DNA of 64,000 nt from Bacteroidota bacterium (GTDB lineage Bacteria; Bacteroidota; Bacteroidia; AKYH767-A; JAHEYN01). The translations under genes and the position numbers were made by a program. Shown piece by piece: positions 1,979 through 12,200 of this stretch. The notes below the pieces were generated by a model. It saw only the letters and a program-made list of their open reading frames with translations, did no database searches and was not told the origin of the DNA. The stretch's first letter is position 1; each line of letters opens with the position of its first letter. The stretch lies in contig JAHEYN010000009.1 in the NCBI GenBank assembly GCA_023251555.1, positions 57,943-121,942 of the forward strand, given 5' to 3'.

Positions 1979-2668
1979 TCAGACAAACTTCAGTTTATCC
2001 ATCAGTAATTTTTTGCACGACCGGCTCACGGGGATAACCTGGTTGTTCATAATTACGCTGTTATCCTCTATCTTGGATATCTTATCCAGCCTGATAATGT
2101 ATGAGTTATGAACTCTCATGAAGGTACTTACGGGAAACTCCTTCTCCATATTCTTCATGGTATTATGCACATGATAATCTTTTAAAGGCGTATGTATGGT
2201 AACATAATTCTCAAGGGCCTCAATGTATAGAATATCTTTGGTGTTGACTTTCACATACGAACCGCCTGATTTAAGGAATACATCCCAATCGGAGTTCTCA
2301 TACGAAAACTTTTTCTCATGGAACTGGCTGGCTTTTATAACTGCCTTTGCAAATCGGCTATACTTAATCGGTTTGAGAAGAAAAGCCGTAACATTATAAT
2401 TAAAAGCGTTCAGGGCATATTTGCTTTCGGAGGTCATTATTATAACCTGGGGCAGAGTCTCATCAAACGCTTTCAAAAAATCCAGCCCATCCATCTCGCG
2501 CATATCGAGACCAAGAAATATAATATCAATTTTATCGCTCAGCATTATCTGGAGTGCCTCTGTACAGCTGGAACATGTTTTAACAAGTTCAAGAAAAGGA
2601 ACCTTCTGCATTAATTCGCGCAGAGACACATTGGCAGCAGGATCATCATCAACAATAAGACACCGCAT
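1979..2668 (-). CDS. LytTR-family response regulator
   Basis: N-terminal receiver (MRCLIVDDDPAA...IIFLGLDMREMDG) plus LytTR DNA-binding domain (SGGSYVKVNTKDILYIEALENYVTIHT...FMRVHNSYIIRLDKI). Confidence 0.93.
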   Translation of the reverse strand: MRCLIVDDDPAANVSLRELMQKVPFLELVKTCSSCTEALQIMLSDKIDIIFLGLDMREMDGLDFLKAFDETLPQVIIMTSESKYALNAFNYNVTAFLLKPIKYSRFAKAVIKASQFHEKKFSYENSDWDVFLKSGGSYVKVNTKDILYIEALENYVTIHTPLKDYHVHNTMKNMEKEFPVSTFMRVHNSYIIRLDKISKIEDNSVIMNNQVIPVSRSCKKLLMDKLKFV

Positions 2669-2756
2669 ACTTTAATTAATATTTATAAGTTTAAAGCACC
2701 CTGTCCCAACTGCTACTTTAATTGCTTTGTCAAAAGCATCGATCATTTGCATGATA

Positions 2757-2999
2757 TTATAACACCGGGTACCCATAATAGATATTTAGCAATCCTGTGT
2801 TATACAATGGCTCTACTCTTACGATTTTTTGCTCATTATAGTTACGAAGAACTTCCACATAAAAGTCCCACAGCATAAAAAGCTGGAGATCATGCCTTTC
2901 ATCAATAATTTTTCTTGAGAGTAATTTGCCTTTCTCCCTCAACAACTGCATCCTCGACTTCATATTAAACAGGCAGAATTCTCCCGTAGTAAGCTTCAT
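2757..2999 (-). CDS. small hypothetical protein between the PLP/GNAT enzyme and the LytTR regulator
   Basis: 80 aa ORF, same strand, 21 nt downstream of the upstream gene; no recognised family. Confidence 0.5.
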   Translation of the reverse strand: MKLTTGEFCLFNMKSRMQLLREKGKLLSRKIIDERHDLQLFMLWDFYVEVLRNYNEQKIVRVEPLYNTGLLNIYYGYPVL

Positions 3000-3020
3000 A
3001 AATTAGGTTTTGCCCCCTTT

Positions 3021-5525
3021 TTACAACCTTGCCTCCACTACACTAATATTCCCGAGGACGGCCATATTATAATTATCCTTTGCCTGCACATAAGCAACGG
3101 GGGTAAAAATTGTTGCCCCTATTTTCTTTTTCTCGGAGGAAGTGGTAAAACCGAGATGTATTTTCTTCAATCCAAGATTCTGTGCTCTTTTTACAACCTG
3201 GTATAACGCCTGCTTGTAAGGTTTAAAATCATCCTGATAACGGTAATCAAGACCTATGATCATAAAATTGTAGGTGTCCCCCGAGATGTAGTTCAGCATC
3301 ACCGCAACAGGCTTGCCCGGGGTTTCCCCGGCTTGTTCATGCCCCGGCTTGAGCGACAAAGTGATGATATCCCAATGCCCCCCCGATACGATGTTCTCAA
3401 ATGCTTTGAACGGAAGTTGAAAAGTGTTTATCACATAGCTCCCGCTCTTTACATTCAGGTAAAGCTGGTACCAGTGGTTCACTTCTTCGGGAGAAGGATT
3501 GGTAACGACCCTGGTATCGTAGAATTCTTCATAACGGAAGATATAACGCTTCACATGCTTGGCAGAAGAGGGAGTGAGCGTTCGGAGGTACTCCTCTTTG
3601 CCCGTCCATTCCACTTTATCAATGGAATGATTCTCGGGCATGCGGATCTTGAAATATCCGTTGTCCACGAGAAATGAATCCATCTCTTCATCCTCATGAT
3701 GAAAATCCCGCAGGGTAACGGTTACCGCCTGGTATTGTTCCTGGAGAGCTGAAATTTTTTCAAACATCAGGTGCATCGCATCTTTCCAGAATGGCGAAGT
3801 TCTGTCAACATAAAGATGCTCCCCCTCAGTAAGGAGGGATCCCAGCGATAACACCTTCGAAGTGAGATAATAAGCATCTCCTTCATTGCGTATTTTTTCA
3901 AGCTGCATAGAAACTGCAGCGGGCGAAAGCATATCATCCTTGGCAAGAGCAGAAGTGAAAAATGCGGCAAGCAGGGTTTTCCCCGATCTGTCTTTAACAA
4001 AAAAATAATCGAAATCCCAGTTGTTTTCCTTCAGCAGGTTGCCGCTGAAAGTCTGCTCAAGAAATCTCATCCCTTCATAATCAAAAGAGCCTTTTCCCGC
4101 ATACATACTATCCCACTCCTCCCTGTCAATTTCATTAATGGATTTAAGGGAAACAACCCGCAGGTCGGCCTTGTTCAGGATAGACGAAACTTCTGCATCT
4201 ATCTGCTTCTCTTCGGGCATTTGCATTTTAAATGCCTTGTAGATATGCTCCATGGAAATATTTTCGTCCGCCAGTGCTTGCGGAAGATGGTGCGCCATCG
4301 CCCCGATCATGCTTTCAATCTGTGCAAAGGTGTGCAGGCGTGTAATGGTAAAGCGAACTCCGGTATTCTTCATGGGAACGGCAGGAAAAATCCCGAGGTT
4401 GAGATAATATCCTTCATTAAACATTCTCCTGACCATATTATACCCCATCTTCGGGAGGCTCACCCCGATAAAAAATACAGGCGTCCCGGATACAGAAACT
4501 GCCGGGAGACCATATTTACCAAGGAGAAGATTTGTATACCGGATATTTTCATGAAGGTCTTCCTGCAGGGAATATATTTCATCCGACAAATGTATCCCGG
4601 CAGATGCGACAGCCGCGCCAAGCGCCCCGGGCTGCATCGGGCCTGAAGTGATAAGCGGCCCACCACAGGTCCTCACCCTCCTTGCCATTTCCGCATCCCC
4701 GAACACAAGCGCCCCGCCTCCCGAAGCAAATGACTTATTGAGCGAAGCCGCCACAACCATCCTTTCGTGGATGGGCTGCCTGCCAAGCACATATCCTCTG
4801 CCGTGTTTGCCAAAGCAACTCATGCCATGTGCATCATCAACATAATAGTGCAACTCCGGGTATTGATTCATCAGTACCCGGACCTCGTCAACAGGAGAAA
4901 CATCGCCATACATGGAATAAATGCCGTCAGCCATATACCATATGCGGGAATATTTCTGACGCAGTATCTTAATCCGTTCCTCCAGCAGGTCAAGGCGGTT
5001 ATGGCGCAGCAACTCAACATGAATACCCCTCGGCTTGAGCAGGGTTACTGCAGTCTGCACGGAGTTGTGAACCTGGTGGTCAAGTATAACCGCATCCGAA
5101 TCCCCGACCAGCACGGGAATGGCCGCAATATGCCCCAGTGTCGTGGTAGGAACTACAACTATGGCAGCCTCAAAAAGAGCCCGGAGCCGGGATTCAAGAG
5201 TATCATACAGCCTGACGGAAACATATGCCCTGGATTCTGAAAATTGTGTACCGTAATTGTCAACTGCCTGCTTCACGCCTTCCTTCAGCCTCCTGTCAAA
5301 TTCAAGCCCCAGATAGCTGCATGAGCCGAAATTCACAACTTTTTCCCCTTTCAGAACAAGTGTGTTTCCGGAAAGACATTCGTCCTCGTTGTGAAGATGA
5401 AGAATCCCCTTTATAACACCGTCAGTAACTATCTGGTCAACAGTATCCGTAAATGAGTGATGGTTTGCCATAAAAACGAAGGATGAATTTTTTTCAAAAA
5501 TACCCCCCCTGTCAAACGAAAACAT
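3021..5525 (-). CDS. fused alpha-oxoamine-synthase-like PLP enzyme / GNAT (FemAB-like) acyltransferase
   Basis: AOS-family motifs (NFGSCSYLGLEFD, YYVDDAHGMSCFGKHGRGYVLG, probable PLP lysine in AASLNKSFASGGGALVFGD), then an approx. 400 aa C-terminal region resembling GNAT/FemAB acyltransferases (SSAKHVKRYIFRYEEFYDTRVV, LGLKKIHLGFTTSSEKKKIGA); alternative start at 5471 (MANHHSF). Confidence 0.8.
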   Translation of the reverse strand: MFSFDRGGIFEKNSSFVFMANHHSFTDTVDQIVTDGVIKGILHLHNEDECLSGNTLVLKGEKVVNFGSCSYLGLEFDRRLKEGVKQAVDNYGTQFSESRAYVSVRLYDTLESRLRALFEAAIVVVPTTTLGHIAAIPVLVGDSDAVILDHQVHNSVQTAVTLLKPRGIHVELLRHNRLDLLEERIKILRQKYSRIWYMADGIYSMYGDVSPVDEVRVLMNQYPELHYYVDDAHGMSCFGKHGRGYVLGRQPIHERMVVAASLNKSFASGGGALVFGDAEMARRVRTCGGPLITSGPMQPGALGAAVASAGIHLSDEIYSLQEDLHENIRYTNLLLGKYGLPAVSVSGTPVFFIGVSLPKMGYNMVRRMFNEGYYLNLGIFPAVPMKNTGVRFTITRLHTFAQIESMIGAMAHHLPQALADENISMEHIYKAFKMQMPEEKQIDAEVSSILNKADLRVVSLKSINEIDREEWDSMYAGKGSFDYEGMRFLEQTFSGNLLKENNWDFDYFFVKDRSGKTLLAAFFTSALAKDDMLSPAAVSMQLEKIRNEGDAYYLTSKVLSLGSLLTEGEHLYVDRTSPFWKDAMHLMFEKISALQEQYQAVTVTLRDFHHEDEEMDSFLVDNGYFKIRMPENHSIDKVEWTGKEEYLRTLTPSSAKHVKRYIFRYEEFYDTRVVTNPSPEEVNHWYQLYLNVKSGSYVINTFQLPFKAFENIVSGGHWDIITLSLKPGHEQAGETPGKPVAVMLNYISGDTYNFMIIGLDYRYQDDFKPYKQALYQVVKRAQNLGLKKIHLGFTTSSEKKKIGATIFTPVAYVQAKDNYNMAVLGNISVVEARL

Positions 5526-5527
5526 CC

Positions 5528-5588
5528 GTATAAATACTGAAAATGCAGTATTTTGAAACTAAGTATTTATAATTAAGTATAAATACTT
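5528..5588. promoter_or_regulatory. cluster of AGTAT/ATACT half-sites with a perfect 10-bp inverted repeat (putative operator)
   Basis: AAGTATTTAT (5561-5570) and ATAAATACTT (5579-5588) are perfect inverted repeats; further half-sites ATACT 5534-5538, AGTAT 5547-5551, AGTAT 5576-5580; lies between divergent genes. Confidence 0.6.
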
Positions 5589-5627
5589 AACTACCGCGTT
5601 ATTATTTAAAAATTCAGGTAATTTAAA

Positions 5628-5635
5628 TATATTTG
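5628..5635 (+). promoter_or_regulatory. putative Bacteroidota -7 promoter box TATATTTG
   Basis: exact match to TAnnTTTG; overlaps the TTG start in the ORF track, so the true translation start is probably slightly downstream. Confidence 0.35.
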
Positions 5636-6049
5636 CGCGTGCTTATAAAGGATTTTGATCACCCATATGTTTTCTTTTCGCTTAGGGATGGTATTTTATG
5701 TATGACCTATCGCTCAGGTCTGATAATCGACAGGAAAATGGCCATGGAGATTGTTGCAACCCGGCTTCGTATTTTCAATGAAAGAGATTATCCCCTGCTG
5801 ATCCTTGACCAGGGAATTGTCAGCATGGACAAGGATGCCCGTGATTTTTTTGCATCAAGAGAAGGATCCAGTGGACTTAATTCGGCAGCCATGGTGTTGA
5901 AATCGGTTTTCAGCAAAGTTCTTGGCAACTTCTTCCTTAAGGTTCATCCTCCTCATATGCCGGTCCGCATTTTTAATGAGGAAGAAAAAGCAATGGCCTG
6001 GCTGGAACAGTTTAAAGAAGTTCCCGAGCTTTTAAAAGTAAGTGCCTGA
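5633..6049 (+). CDS. STAS/SEC14-like (SpoIIAA-like) domain protein
   Basis: 138 aa; pattern DARDFFASREGSSGLNSAAMVLKSVFSKVLGNFFLKVHPPHMPVRIFNEEEKAMAWLEQF resembles a Bacteroidota STAS-like family; start uncertain. Confidence 0.6.
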   Translation: MRVLIKDFDHPYVFFSLRDGILCMTYRSGLIIDRKMAMEIVATRLRIFNERDYPLLILDQGIVSMDKDARDFFASREGSSGLNSAAMVLKSVFSKVLGNFFLKVHPPHMPVRIFNEEEKAMAWLEQFKEVPELLKVSA

Positions 6050-7579
6050 GTGGACCCCCGGTTCGACAAAATCAATGAGCTTTTTATCAACTACTCCCTC
6101 GGGAATTTTGATTTAAAAGGGACCCTTTCGCCCCGCCTTGATGAAGTTGATGCCTTTATCTCCAGTGTTAATATGCTTGGAGAAGAACTGAAAGCCTCCA
6201 CTATCTCCAAAAATTATTTTAACGATATTTTTCATTCCATACCGGATATGCTTTTCATGCTTGATGATAAAGGGAATATTACAAACATCAATCATGCCGT
6301 TGCAGAAAAACTTTTATACACTTCGGCGGAAATGAAAGGTTACAATATTGACCACCTGCTTGCTTCAGGCAAATCGCCATTATTTGCGTCTGCGCGGGAA
6401 CTGCTTACCAGAGGACAGCCCCTCGCAGACTATGAAACTGACTTTCGCACTTCGGCAAACAGGATAATCCCGGTGTATTGCACAATTACCCTTGTATATA
6501 CCTCAAAAGATAAAAATCCCGACTACCTGCTTGTTGCAAAAGATCTTACCCGGATTAGGGAATACCAGGTCTCGCTTCTGCACTCGGAAGAGAAATATAA
6601 AAGGCTTTTTCAGGAATCAAGCGATGCAGTTGTTGTGTTTAATCAACAAAGAAATTTGATAGATTTCAATAAAGCATTTTTATCCCTTTTTAACTACTTA
6701 CCGGAAGATGCAGTGGGAATGTTTTTTTATGACTTATACAGCAATCGGGCTGAGATGACACATTTTGAAAAATTGCTGTGTGAGAAAGGCAGCGTCATTG
6801 ACTTTAAAACCAAACTTTCAGATAGCAACGGGAACCTGATTGACTGCCAGATATCGGTGGCCATGGTGAATAATAACAACAGGGAGATGATCGGGTTCCA
6901 GGGGATCATCAAGGATATCCGTAAACAAAAGGAAACCGAACAGCTGCTTGTAAGAACCATGGTTGACACACAGGAAGCCGAACGCAAACGGTTTGCAAAA
7001 GACATTCACGACGGACTGGGCCAGCAGCTCTCTGCAATAAAGTTTTATCTCGGAGCACTCAAAAAAGCAAATTCGTTTTCATGGGAAAAAATTGAGACTA
7101 TCCTGGAGAAAACCAATGAAGCGCTCCATTCTGTGATAAATGAAGTGCGGAATATTTGCTTTAACCTGATGCCCCGTACCCTTGAAGAACATGGACTGGC
7201 CCACGCCATCAATGAGTTGTGCAGCAAACTTGAATTTATGGGAATAATGCAATTTGAAATTGATATTGAATATCTTCACCCTGTTGACAAATCTCTTGAA
7301 ATCGCTATCTTCCGCCTCGTACAGGAATTTATCAATAATACCATGAAGCATGCCCAGGCTTCACAGATAACAGTTGTTATTAAACAAAATAATACCGTTC
7401 TGCATGTTATTCTCAAAGATAACGGAGTCGGGTTCAATGCTGATAATATGACTACCTTCAACGGGATGGGCCTGCGCAACGTACGATCGAGAGTAGAATC
7501 TTACAATGGAGAAGTACGTTTTGAAAGTGCCCCCGGCAACGGAACATTATATAAAATAGATATCCCAATCCCCGCATGA
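6050..7579 (+). CDS. PAS-domain sensor histidine kinase (HisKA_3/HATPase_c), apparently soluble
   Basis: two PAS-like segments; AERKRFAKDIHDGLGQQLSAIKFYL H-box; DNGVGFNADNMTTFNGMGLRNVRSRV ATPase motif; no obvious transmembrane stretch; GTG start directly after upstream stop. Confidence 0.9.
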   Translation: MDPRFDKINELFINYSLGNFDLKGTLSPRLDEVDAFISSVNMLGEELKASTISKNYFNDIFHSIPDMLFMLDDKGNITNINHAVAEKLLYTSAEMKGYNIDHLLASGKSPLFASARELLTRGQPLADYETDFRTSANRIIPVYCTITLVYTSKDKNPDYLLVAKDLTRIREYQVSLLHSEEKYKRLFQESSDAVVVFNQQRNLIDFNKAFLSLFNYLPEDAVGMFFYDLYSNRAEMTHFEKLLCEKGSVIDFKTKLSDSNGNLIDCQISVAMVNNNNREMIGFQGIIKDIRKQKETEQLLVRTMVDTQEAERKRFAKDIHDGLGQQLSAIKFYLGALKKANSFSWEKIETILEKTNEALHSVINEVRNICFNLMPRTLEEHGLAHAINELCSKLEFMGIMQFEIDIEYLHPVDKSLEIAIFRLVQEFINNTMKHAQASQITVVIKQNNTVLHVILKDNGVGFNADNMTTFNGMGLRNVRSRVESYNGEVRFESAPGNGTLYKIDIPIPA

Positions 7580-8262
7580 AAATAAGTACACCTGTTAAGA
7601 TCCTTATAGTCGATGATCACAAAATGATTCGCGACGGCCTCAGGAATATGATTGAGTCCCAGGGAGTTCCCAGTCAGTTTTACATCCAGGAAGCCGCCTC
7701 CGGCGAAGAAGGCATAGAGAAAATTAAACATTTTGATTTTGATATTATCATTATGGATTATCAGCTCCCTGGCAAAGATGGCGCTCAGACAATAGCAGAA
7801 ATGCTTATTTATAAATCGGACCTGAAAATCCTCGCTCTTTCAAATTACGATGAACACATGTATATAAATAACATTTTAAAGGCGGGAGCAAGAGGATTTG
7901 TGTTGAAAAACATTGAACCCGAAGAACTGATCAAAGCCATGGAGACAATTATAGGGGGACATACCTATTATTCTCATGATATTGCGACACGTCTTGTTGA
8001 CGCAAGCTATTCCAGGTATAACTTCTCCCAACAGGCAAGTCCTTCACAATCAAGAGAAGGGGATGCTGTATCCACTCTTTCTGAACGGGAAAAAGAAATC
8101 CTTAATATGATTGCCGGAGAAAATACAAATGAACAGATTGCAAAAAAACTCAATGTGAGCGTAAGAACCATTCATACGCACCGAAGTAATATACTTAGGA
8201 AACTCGGGGTAAAAAATACTGCCGGATTAATAAAAGCGGCCAGTATCCTGAAACTCATATAG
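7576..8262 (+). CDS. NarL/FixJ-family response regulator
   Basis: receiver (KILIVDDHKMIRDGL, IIIMDYQLPGKDG) plus LuxR-type HTH (LSEREKEILNMIAGENTNEQIAKKLNVSVRTIHTHRSNILRKLGV); 4-nt overlap with the kinase. Confidence 0.95.
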   Translation: MKISTPVKILIVDDHKMIRDGLRNMIESQGVPSQFYIQEAASGEEGIEKIKHFDFDIIIMDYQLPGKDGAQTIAEMLIYKSDLKILALSNYDEHMYINNILKAGARGFVLKNIEPEELIKAMETIIGGHTYYSHDIATRLVDASYSRYNFSQQASPSQSREGDAVSTLSEREKEILNMIAGENTNEQIAKKLNVSVRTIHTHRSNILRKLGVKNTAGLIKAASILKLI

Positions 8263-9007
8263 ACCTCATTCCTGCATAGGTGTTATACCCGGGGTCCAGG
8301 GGGGACCTTATTACAAACACCTTGCTCCCGGCGGATATCTCTGCAAGTTGCATTGTACTTTCCCCTTCCAGTAAAGCAAAATCCCCCGTTGTTATTTTAT
8401 TTCCGTTGAGGACCATATTCCCTTCTATAAGAAAAAGGGAATAAACATCCCCGGGAGAAAGCGGGTATTCTTTGAAAGCCGTAAAGAATGTTATTTCCCG
8501 GATATCGCCTATATTACTTTCGGTCATGAATGGCGTGCCTCCTAAAATAACTTTTGTACTGCTGTCCTGATCTTTATATACAGGAAAGAGTTCCGACGGA
8601 TAATCATTGTAAGAGGCTTTATGGGAAAGTGTTTTAGATACGTCAGGGTCAAACCATATCTGGAACATCGCAGCGCCAGGAAGAATTTTCTCGGCATGCG
8701 TAATTCCGCTCCCGGCCCTGATAATCTGCACATCCCCTGCGTTGAGACGCTTCCATCCTTTGTGCATACTGTCATAATGTTCTATCGCCCCCCTGAGAAC
8801 ATAAGACATAATTTCAAAGCCCTGGTGGGGGTGCTCTCCAATCATCCCCCCGGTATCGCTCCACGCATGAGCCCAGTAAAAAATAGTTGAGTACGGCTTC
8901 AGCAACCCCCCGTCCTGCGGAAACCCTACAGGTTTCCGCTCAAGAATACGCTCCCCGTCAAAAGCCCCGCCAGCCTGCATTGAAGATGGGAAAAAAAGAA
9001 CCGGCAT
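8255..9007 (-). CDS. pirin family protein
   Basis: GEHPHQGFEIMSYVLRGAIEHYDSMHKG and QIIRAGSGITHAEK pirin/cupin motifs. Confidence 0.9.
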   Translation of the reverse strand: MPVLFFPSSMQAGGAFDGERILERKPVGFPQDGGLLKPYSTIFYWAHAWSDTGGMIGEHPHQGFEIMSYVLRGAIEHYDSMHKGWKRLNAGDVQIIRAGSGITHAEKILPGAAMFQIWFDPDVSKTLSHKASYNDYPSELFPVYKDQDSSTKVILGGTPFMTESNIGDIREITFFTAFKEYPLSPGDVYSLFLIEGNMVLNGNKITTGDFALLEGESTMQLAEISAGSKVFVIRSPLDPGYNTYAGMRSI

Positions 9008-9291: not shown

Positions 9292-12200
9292 ATGAAATCT
9301 TTTCAAAAAGCAAATAACTTAGCAGGCTGGATTGTGTTCGCAATAGCCAGTACGGTTTACCTCCTTACTATAGAGCCTACCGCCAGCTTTTGGGACTGTG
9401 GGGAATTTATTGCTACCGCATTTAAGTTGGAGGTCGGCCATCCCCCCGGAGCTCCCCTGTTCCTGATTCTCGGGAGAATCGTATCCCTGTTTGCAGGAAA
9501 TGATCTCTCTAAGGTACCCGTAATGATTAATGCCCTCTCGGCTATTGCAAGCGGGTTCACAATCCTTTTTCTTTTCTGGACCATTACTCACTTTGCAAGA
9601 AAACTGCTTGCCCCCGACGGAAATTTTCAACCTGCCAAAATCATCCTTATACTGGGAAGCGGGGCTGTCGGAGCAATGGCATATACTTTCAGCGATTCCT
9701 TCTGGTTCTCCGCTGTGGAAGGTGAGGTATATGCAAGTTCCTCTTTCTTTACAGCTATCGTGGTATGGGCTATGCTGAAATGGGAAAATGCCGCCGATGA
9801 GAAACACGCCAACCGCTGGCTCATTCTTATCGCTTACCTGATGGGGCTTTCTATCGGAGTTCACCTTCTTAACCTGCTTGCCATCCCTTCTCTTGCCTTT
9901 ATTTATTATTTCAGGAAATACAAGCCCAGCACCAAAGGTATTATTCTGACTGCCATTATCGGAATGCTTATACTCGGCCTGGTTCAGGCCGGGGTAATAC
10001 CATGGGTGGTTATCCTCGGCTCTTATTTCGATTTGTTCTTTGTGAATACGCTCAGGCTTCCCTTCGGGTCCGGTATAATTGTTTATGCAATCCTCGTTAT
10101 TACCGGCATTACAGCAGGCCTTTATTATACCAGGCAAAAAAACAAGCCCCTGTGGAATACTGTGATTCTCTGTGTTACTTTTATCATTATCGGCTATTCT
10201 TCCTTCGCCCAGATACTGATTCGCTCCGCCGCCAACCCTCCAATGGATGAAAATAATCCCGAAAACCCTTTCACCCTTCGCTCCTATCTTGACCGTGAAC
10301 AATACGGAGACCGGCCCTTGCTTTACGGGCAATATTACACTGCCAAATATATTGATCAGGAGGAGGGCGCTATGACTTTCCGCGTAAGAAGCGATGACGA
10401 AAAGAGAGTACTGAAAGAAAAATATGAAAACAAACTTATCAGTAAATCAGAATATGAAGAACTTATAAAAGATCAATACATTGAAGCCGGCCGGAAAACA
10501 ATCCCCGTTTATAACCCTGAAGACTGCACCATCTTCCCAAGAATGTTCAGCAGCCAGGGAAGTCATGTCAATGCCTACAAGGAATGGGCCGGAATAAAAG
10601 GAGATAAGACCCCAACCTTTGCGCAGAACCTCAAATTCTTTTTCGCTTACCAGGTAAACTGGATGTACTGGCGTTACTTCATGTGGAACTTTACAGGGAG
10701 GCAAAATGATGTTCAGGGACACGGGAATATCACTGACGGAAACTGGATAAGCGGGATCCCTTTTATTGATAAGATTTTCCTCGGGCCCCAGGATAAAATT
10801 CCTCCCAGCATGACGAAAAATAAAGCCATGAATAAATTCTACTTCCTTCCTTTTATCCTCGGTATGATTGGGCTTGTATATCACTTCTCCAGGAATAAAA
10901 AGGATTCACTGGTAGTGCTGCTCCTGTTTTTCTTCACCGGGCTGGCGATCGTGCTTTACCTTAACCAGACCCCATACCAGCCGAGGGAACGGGATTATGC
11001 TTATGCCGGTTCATTCTATGCTTATGCCATGTGGATTGGCCTCGGAGTGCTGGCTGTCGCAGATTTTATCAGTAAAAAAATCAAGATCTCTGTGATCGCA
11101 AGCGCCGGCATTGCCATTCTCCTGTGTTCTTCCGTGCCCTTCGTGATGGGTAAAGACGGATGGAATGACCATAATCGCTCAGGAAGACGCACTTCCCGCG
11201 ACTTTGCATATGATTATCTTAATTCCTGTGCCCCGAATGCCATCCTGTTTACAAACGGAGATAATGACACTTTCCCGCTCTGGTATGCACAGGAAGTGGA
11301 AGGCATAAGAACTGATGTTAGGGTGGTTAACCTGAGTCTTCTTAACACAGACTGGTACATAGACCAGATGAAACGAAAAGCTTACGATTCCGACCCGGTG
11401 CCTTTTTCCTTAACCAGCGATAAGTACGTTCAGGGAACCAGAGACTATATTCCCTTTTATGACAAAAAGATTAAAGATTATGTACCACTGAGTGATCTTA
11501 TTGATTTTATTGGCAGTGAAAATCCTCAGGCAAAAGTACGGACACAGGGCGGCAATGAACTTAATTTTTATCCTGCAAAAAAATTCAGCATCCCCGTTGA
11601 CAGTGCAACAGTGGTAAACAACGGAACCGTCCCTAAAGATCTTGCAGGACAAGTTGTCAACGCCGTTGAGTGGGAGATTGACAAGAACTACCTCATGAAA
11701 GCAGATATTATGATCCTTGACCTGCTCGCACATAACAATTGGAAACGGCCTGTATATTTTGCTATTACAGTCGGGAATGACAGTTATATGAATCTTGAAG
11801 ATTATTTTCAGCTCGAAGGACTTGCTTACAGGCTCGTGCCTATAAAAAGTAAAACAAAAGATGGACAAACAGGCCGTATCTATTCTGATATCACTTACAA
11901 AAATCTCATGGAGAAATTCAAATGGGGAGGCATGGATAACCCCAAAGTTTATCTTGACGAGAACAACCTCCGCATGACTATGAACTTCAGGAATAACTTT
12001 GCCCGACTTGCCTATACGCTCCTCGGGGAAGGAAAGAAAGATTCTGCCACAAAAGTGCTTGACCGGTGCGTTGAAGTAATGCCCGAAAGCACTGTTCCCT
12101 ATAATATTTTCATGCTGCGGATTGCTGAAATGTATTACCGTGCAGGGGCTATAGAAAAAGCCAATAAAATTGCCCGCCGCCTGGCAGAGGTTTATGAACA

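Follow-up and report, generated by a model that had tools for sequence, protein, structure and literature searches.

A fused alpha-oxoamine synthase-GNAT enzyme encoded beside a conserved sensor module in Bacteroidota: a candidate metabolite-signalling locus

Do the regulators encoded around a fused alpha-oxoamine synthase (AOS) in a Bacteroidota genome respond to what this enzyme makes? The locus in question lies in a 64,000-nucleotide stretch (the window) of contig JAHEYN010000009.1 (assembly GCA_023251555.1). A leftward gene (3021-5525, minus strand) encodes an 834-residue protein in which an AOS domain is joined to a tandem-GNAT (FemX-type) transferase domain. Divergently from it run the genes for a DUF7793 STAS-like protein (5633-6049, plus strand; PF25056, 3e-35), a soluble sensor kinase (6050-7579, plus strand; HAMP-like N-terminus, two PAS domains, HisKA_3 and HATPase_c) and a NarL/GerE-type response regulator (7576-8262, plus strand; REC and GerE domains). 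The initial annotation of this DNA had described six open reading frames (ORFs) here and proposed that the enzyme yields a lipid or a diffusible signal sensed by its neighbours. All six are present with the coordinates, strands and spacing then given, and family profiles bear out the domain assignments. The conserved linkage of the fusion with sensor and regulator genes suggests a previously undescribed chemical signalling circuit resembling quorum sensing. On balance, we favour the reading that this is a metabolite-signalling locus, with a product sensed by the DUF7793/HAMP-PAS module and feedback on the shared promoter.

Neighbourhood and shared promoter of the fusion gene

When 84,980 species genomes were scanned, 167 relatives of the fusion emerged. 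Locus tallies cover the best 80, which span the fusion over its full length or nearly so (a few at contig ends) and belong to Bacteroidota wherever a phylum is named. Cultured carriers include Flavihumibacter petaseus, Crocinitomix, Ferruginibacter paludis and Gillisia limnaea. Neighbours were tallied with hidden Markov models. A divergent DUF7793 gene was found at 71 of the 80 loci, and at 63 of the 70 with at least 3.5 kb of upstream sequence; other partners were a HisKA_3 kinase (40 loci), a NarL-type regulator (41) and a sensor-AraC fusion (23). An independent, evenly drawn sample of the class (n = 247 genomes) contained 32 fusion genes in 27 genomes, with DUF7793 within ~1 kb of at least 30 of the 32 by coordinates (27 divergent, 3 downstream). 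No partner accompanies the fusion more constantly than DUF7793, and the main exceptions to the DUF7793/sensor linkage are copies in Saprospiraceae.

The LytTR-type regulator on the other side of the enzyme (1979-2668, minus strand; REC and LytTR domains) behaved differently. It was not a conserved neighbour of the fusion, and we rejected it as a component of the system. Its receiver lacks the phospho-acceptor Asp (FLGLD versus FLDVQ in an ordinary receiver), and the protein is therefore probably phosphorylation-independent. The absence of a conserved LytTR gene is what one would expect if unrelated genes had come together by chance, as the initial annotation had allowed. However, the DUF7793 linkage recurs across diverse families in both samples (71 of 80 and 30 of 32), with a binomial probability of ~5e-58 when the background rate is set liberally at 1% and relatedness is left out of account. 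A chance neighbourhood is thus refuted for DUF7793, sensor and regulator, and we consider it very improbable overall. Nor is the fusion found widely without regulators, since DUF7793 with a sensor or regulator accompanies most copies.

The DUF7793, kinase and NarL genes form an operon-like run, the first two adjoining at 0 bp (TGA|GTG) and the last two overlapping by 4 bp (ATGA). Between the DUF7793 gene and the 834-residue ORF lies a divergent promoter region (5526-5632, no strand assigned). Because homologues of the fusion align only from residue ~18-24, Met19 is the likely start of the enzyme (gene 3021-5471), and the intergenic region is therefore probably ~161 bp long (5472-5632). An operator-like cluster at 5528-5590 (no strand assigned) contains three copies of AGTATTTAT, versus 0.82 expected in the whole window, and two of these copies form a 30-bp palindrome (5560-5589). 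The 26-bp core pattern of the palindrome occurs once in the 2.8-Mb genome, only at the fusion promoter. A related locus with ~50% protein identity (L032) carries a palindrome matching at 29 of 30 positions. Two motifs chosen post hoc, after the data had been seen, recur at other loci: the operator core GTATTTATAC in 7 of 43 loci of the histidine kinase/NarL type (0.1 expected) versus 0 of 29 of the AraC type, and AAAACTGGT in 14 of 29 AraC-type loci, which are related to each other. Genome-wide, single operator half-sites were no commoner than a reversed-pattern control (31 versus 60), and thus only the local cluster is meaningful. The cluster suggests local autoregulation through putative operators.

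Directly downstream of the fusion, a small ORF (2757-2999, minus strand) encodes an 80-residue protein with no match in Pfam or NCBIfam; its counterpart occupies the same position at 29 of the 80 loci. Apart from this gene, the genes that recur across fusion loci are regulators. A search for copies of the fusion on plasmids or phages found none, and an anti-phage defence function was rejected, as PADLOC gave no match. At the far end of the locus, a Pirin-family gene (window 8255-9007) is convergent with the NarL gene and overlaps it by 8 bp.

The two halves of the fusion enzyme

The AOS half (residues ~19-429; 4239-5471, minus strand) was delimited by alignment with KBL/BioF paralogues and by sequence matches in the PDB. 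The residues of the pyridoxal phosphate (PLP) site are kept in this alignment (H153, D230/D231, H233, K264 and R391), and the PLP Lys, the Asp, the stacking His and the carboxylate Arg are conserved throughout the family or nearly so. AOS-type catalysis is therefore expected of this half. The best NCBIfam models were PRK07505, an uncharacterised family (248 bits), serine palmitoyltransferase (SPT; 158.6 bits), bioF (130 bits) and KBL, all scoring below their cut-offs. Membership of CqsA/LqsA was rejected (PRK07179; 49 bits versus a cut-off of 428), as was membership of the SPT of the CFB group (NF047600; cut-off 640 bits). In the PDB the sequence matches were Alb29, SPT, KBL and BioF. The nearest, Alb29 of Streptomyces albogriseolus (8xha; 1.4e-36), is the closest solved AOS by sequence but differs as a stand-alone actinobacterial enzyme of low identity, with neither a GNAT half nor a known linked sensor. 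Relative to the KBL-, BioF- and SPT-like paralogues of the genome, fusions and stand-alone AOS relatives group in a single clade with full support.

The C-terminal half (residues 430-834; 3024-4238, minus strand) passes the cut-off of the Pfam family Acetyltransf_6 (PF13480; 32.3 versus 22 bits). Among 59 relatives of the fusion, 36 matched Acetyltransf_6 and 17 FemAB_like (PF04339), and invariant residues are found across all 59. Because a profile of this half returned zero PDB matches at E < 1, we turned to a fold search. The AlphaFold2 model (pLDDT 93.2, pTM 0.89) has a double-GNAT fold with FemX as the best Foldseek match (1.7e-12), confirming the acyltransferase fold anticipated in the initial annotation. 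The nearest folds are FemX, the aminoacyl-tRNA-dependent peptide synthases Sba18/Sbb17 of streptothricin synthesis and MprF/PGS. The likeness is one of fold, with identity mostly ≤15%, and the GNAT of the window differs from these in being fused to an AOS. The natural reading of the model is an N-acyl or N-aminoacyl transferase. Acyl-CoA/ACP and aminoacyl-tRNA are equally possible as donors.

Thus, the fusion belongs to the AOS superfamily and the tandem-GNAT fold, and is neither a CqsA/LqsA nor an SPT. We found no description of the fusion system in the open-access literature, and nothing there on DUF7793 or on AOS with GNAT in Bacteroidetes; the enzyme does not appear to be an already characterised one.

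The same architecture might serve a regulated lipid or secondary-metabolite enzyme whose product, an N-acyl amino-ketone (3-keto-ceramide- or sulfonolipid-like), is destined for the membrane or for secretion, the DUF7793-kinase-NarL operon being no more than a switch within the cluster for some other cue. PLP-dependent condensation followed by N-acylation would share the reaction logic of SPT with bacterial ceramide synthase, and in the sphingolipid route of Caulobacter N-acylation may come before reduction (PMC11324152). The occurrence of DUF7793 and HAMP-like kinases without the enzyme would also fit. However, the AOS half scores far under the SPT cut-off, both steps would reside in a single polypeptide, and no shared biosynthetic partner, reductase or pathway gene recurs beside the fusion in the neighbourhoods of its homologues. 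With the SPT cut-off failed and the pathway neighbours absent, we rejected a sphingolipid or sulfonolipid enzyme as the family assignment. In addition, the nearest fold of the C-terminal half is FemX and not a known ceramide synthase, in a comparison that left bacterial ceramide synthase sequences outside, and the sister AOS enzymes pair one-to-one with a kinase family (see below). We judge the lipid or secondary-metabolite explanation rather unlikely.

Stand-alone synthases and membrane-bound kinases

In 21 further genomes of the 247-genome sample, only a stand-alone AOS was found (41-53% identity). A kinase with several predicted transmembrane (TM) helices adjoins 10 of 15 stand-alone AOS loci, and nine of these kinases have a homologous N-terminal domain in common. 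When this multi-TM sensor domain alone was searched for, it was present in 20 of the 247 genomes: 19 of the 21 with a stand-alone AOS versus 1 of the 226 others (Fisher 3.6e-25, uncorrected for relatedness). Among 41 relatives, the sensor domain occurred in all 31 genomes with a stand-alone AOS versus none of the 10 without; the genome of the window is one of these 10 and lacks both. By coordinates, the two genes are no more than ~2.5 kb apart in 29 of the 31 AOS-kinase pairs; contig ends are involved in the remaining two. The stand-alone AOS and the multi-TM kinase look like a cognate synthase-receptor pair, judged from their sequences and distribution. No other result argues as strongly for a signalling role of the clade as this co-occurrence, which concerns the sister form rather than the fusion itself. 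Note that the pairs (L144-L158; for example L149:8186-9457 with 10201-11583 and L152:8046-9371 with 10026-11759) span several Bacteroidota families, including the order of the window, often together with a CheY-like regulator.

In the alpha-hydroxyketone quorum sensing of Vibrio (CqsA/CqsS) and Legionella (LqsA/LqsS), an AOS-family enzyme is likewise encoded beside a sensor kinase or response regulator. Reviews of alpha-hydroxyketone signalling name Proteobacteria. The stand-alone AOS and its kinase are usually neighbours, and the multi-TM kinases are similar to CqsS and LqsS in architecture, the only feature compared; the pairs are candidates for a CqsA/CqsS-like system in their own right. 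The locus of the window differs in that its AOS is fused to a tandem GNAT, and its receptor candidate is a soluble DUF7793 and HAMP-PAS module, not a six-TM kinase; a multi-TM kinase is found only beside the stand-alone relatives. By analogy, the locus most likely works like the CqsA/LqsA systems, and it is best read as a variant of AOS-based signalling that combines a bifunctional synthase with a soluble receptor module. The signalling link proposed in the initial annotation is thus strengthened by the pairing of the stand-alone AOS with the multi-TM kinase, with DUF7793, sensor and regulator retained as partners and LytTR removed.

Sensor module, mobile copies and the proposed circuit

The DUF7793 protein has a weak SpoIIAA-like profile match, and its AlphaFold2 model (pLDDT 88.5) adopts a SpoIIAA/STAS-like fold (Foldseek matches 2q3l and 4xs5). 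In a by-eye alignment it reads K-x-A-R where SpoIIAA has the phospho-Ser motif D-S-[ST]-G, and A69 and R70 are (nearly) invariant. A phospho-switching STAS protein of the SpoIIAA/RsbV type was rejected, as the position of the phosphorylatable Ser is occupied by this K-x-A-R stretch. The kinase has no hydrophobic segment (maximal 19-residue Kyte-Doolittle score 0.86) and is therefore called soluble, as first annotated. Its N-terminal module, a HAMP-like stretch (assigned by pattern only) followed by PAS, is common to sensors with kinase output and those with AraC output, the latter at Flavobacteriaceae loci; at one Bacteroidales fusion locus the kinase is of the hybrid type.

Some genomes contain up to 17 copies of DUF7793. 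Away from the fusion, the gene often precedes or overlaps that of a soluble HAMP-like kinase without AOS (L160, L161, L163, L164, L169 and L170), and DUF7793 with a HAMP-like sensor is thus, by these gene arrangements, a general Bacteroidota module to which the enzyme is coupled. The second DUF7793 of the window's genome (L159:5406-5783, G000:C21) is an orphan with no adjoining kinase. At L162:4544-6309 (G221:C15), a truncated fusion (169-residue remnant) lies by an intact DUF7793-AraC-MauE set; this copy is decaying, and the same genome contains a complete fusion as well.

In the circuit that we favour, the AOS half would carry out a PLP-dependent condensation of an amino acid and an acyl thioester, and the FemX-like half would then transfer an acyl or aminoacyl cap to the resulting amine. 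The product, hydrophobic or an amide, might diffuse from cell to cell and would be sensed intracellularly by the DUF7793 and HAMP-PAS module. Output would pass through the kinase/NarL pair in the window and through a directly fused AraC domain elsewhere, and the regulators would in turn feed back on the divergent promoter that both sides share. Several points weigh against this circuit. The kinase of the sister clade is membrane-bound, whereas that of the window is soluble, and four or five Saprospiraceae copies of the fusion have no recognisable adjoining sensor module. Moreover, regulators encoded next to an enzyme may do no more than set its expression, and the DUF7793 and HAMP-like kinase module, which also occurs without the enzyme, may read another cue.

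Some fusion genes probably lie on mobile elements. RteC follows the fusion at 22 of the 80 loci, all of Flavobacteriaceae type, starting -4 to 75 bp after it (for example L064:10414-13179, where RteC comes immediately after the fusion), and a helix-turn-helix protein and an AAA protein come next in many of them. In the one such locus that was read outwards (genome G065), fusion and RteC lie beside a DUF4099/DUF3945 protein, a topoisomerase, a YWFCY/TraG coupling protein, a MobA relaxase, a ParA-like protein and a DUF3875 protein, a gene content pointing to a CTnDOT-like integrative conjugative element. At L181:1-19499, conjugation genes (topoisomerase, TraG, MobA and ParA) come after fusion-RteC, with MauE, DUF6520, SusCD and S9 genes on the sensor side (L182). 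In CTnDOT, tetQ-rteA-rteB lie beside rteC. The 22 fusion loci resemble this region in RteC, and that of G065 also in its conjugation genes, but they have the synthase and the DUF7793/AraC sensor by rteC in place of tetQ-rteA-rteB. The enzyme gene may be coupled to RteC in Flavobacteriaceae elements, an arrangement that speaks for a signalling role.

Carriage on such elements with SusCD/S9 genes would suit a weapon or other fitness cargo: an antibiotic- or siderophore-like product formed by AOS chemistry and aminoacyl-tRNA-dependent aminoacylation by the FemX-like half. The nearest folds of that half do use aminoacyl-tRNA, and the nearest AOS by sequence comes from Streptomyces. However, the fold cannot tell the donor, and the chromosomal fusion loci share no conserved transporter, immunity gene or additional tailoring enzyme. 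We consider such a product improbable.

Beyond the signalling circuit itself, a broader proposal is possible, and we offer it tentatively: Bacteroidota may have an AOS pheromone system of their own in two forms. One would pair a stand-alone AOS with a multi-TM kinase, the other an AOS-FemX fusion with a soluble DUF7793/HAMP-PAS receptor. The product of the fusion would be an N-capped amino-ketone acting as a pheromone, and conjugative elements would have recruited the fusion at rteC to time their transfer. To our knowledge, little is known of small-molecule quorum sensing that is native to Bacteroidota. A synthase clade that a kinase family tracks almost perfectly, and a fused synthase that travels with a sensor module of its own and lies before rteC on a conjugative element, together supply genes and strains by name and a predicted type of molecule for testing; they could also connect signalling between cells with gene transfer in Bacteroidota.

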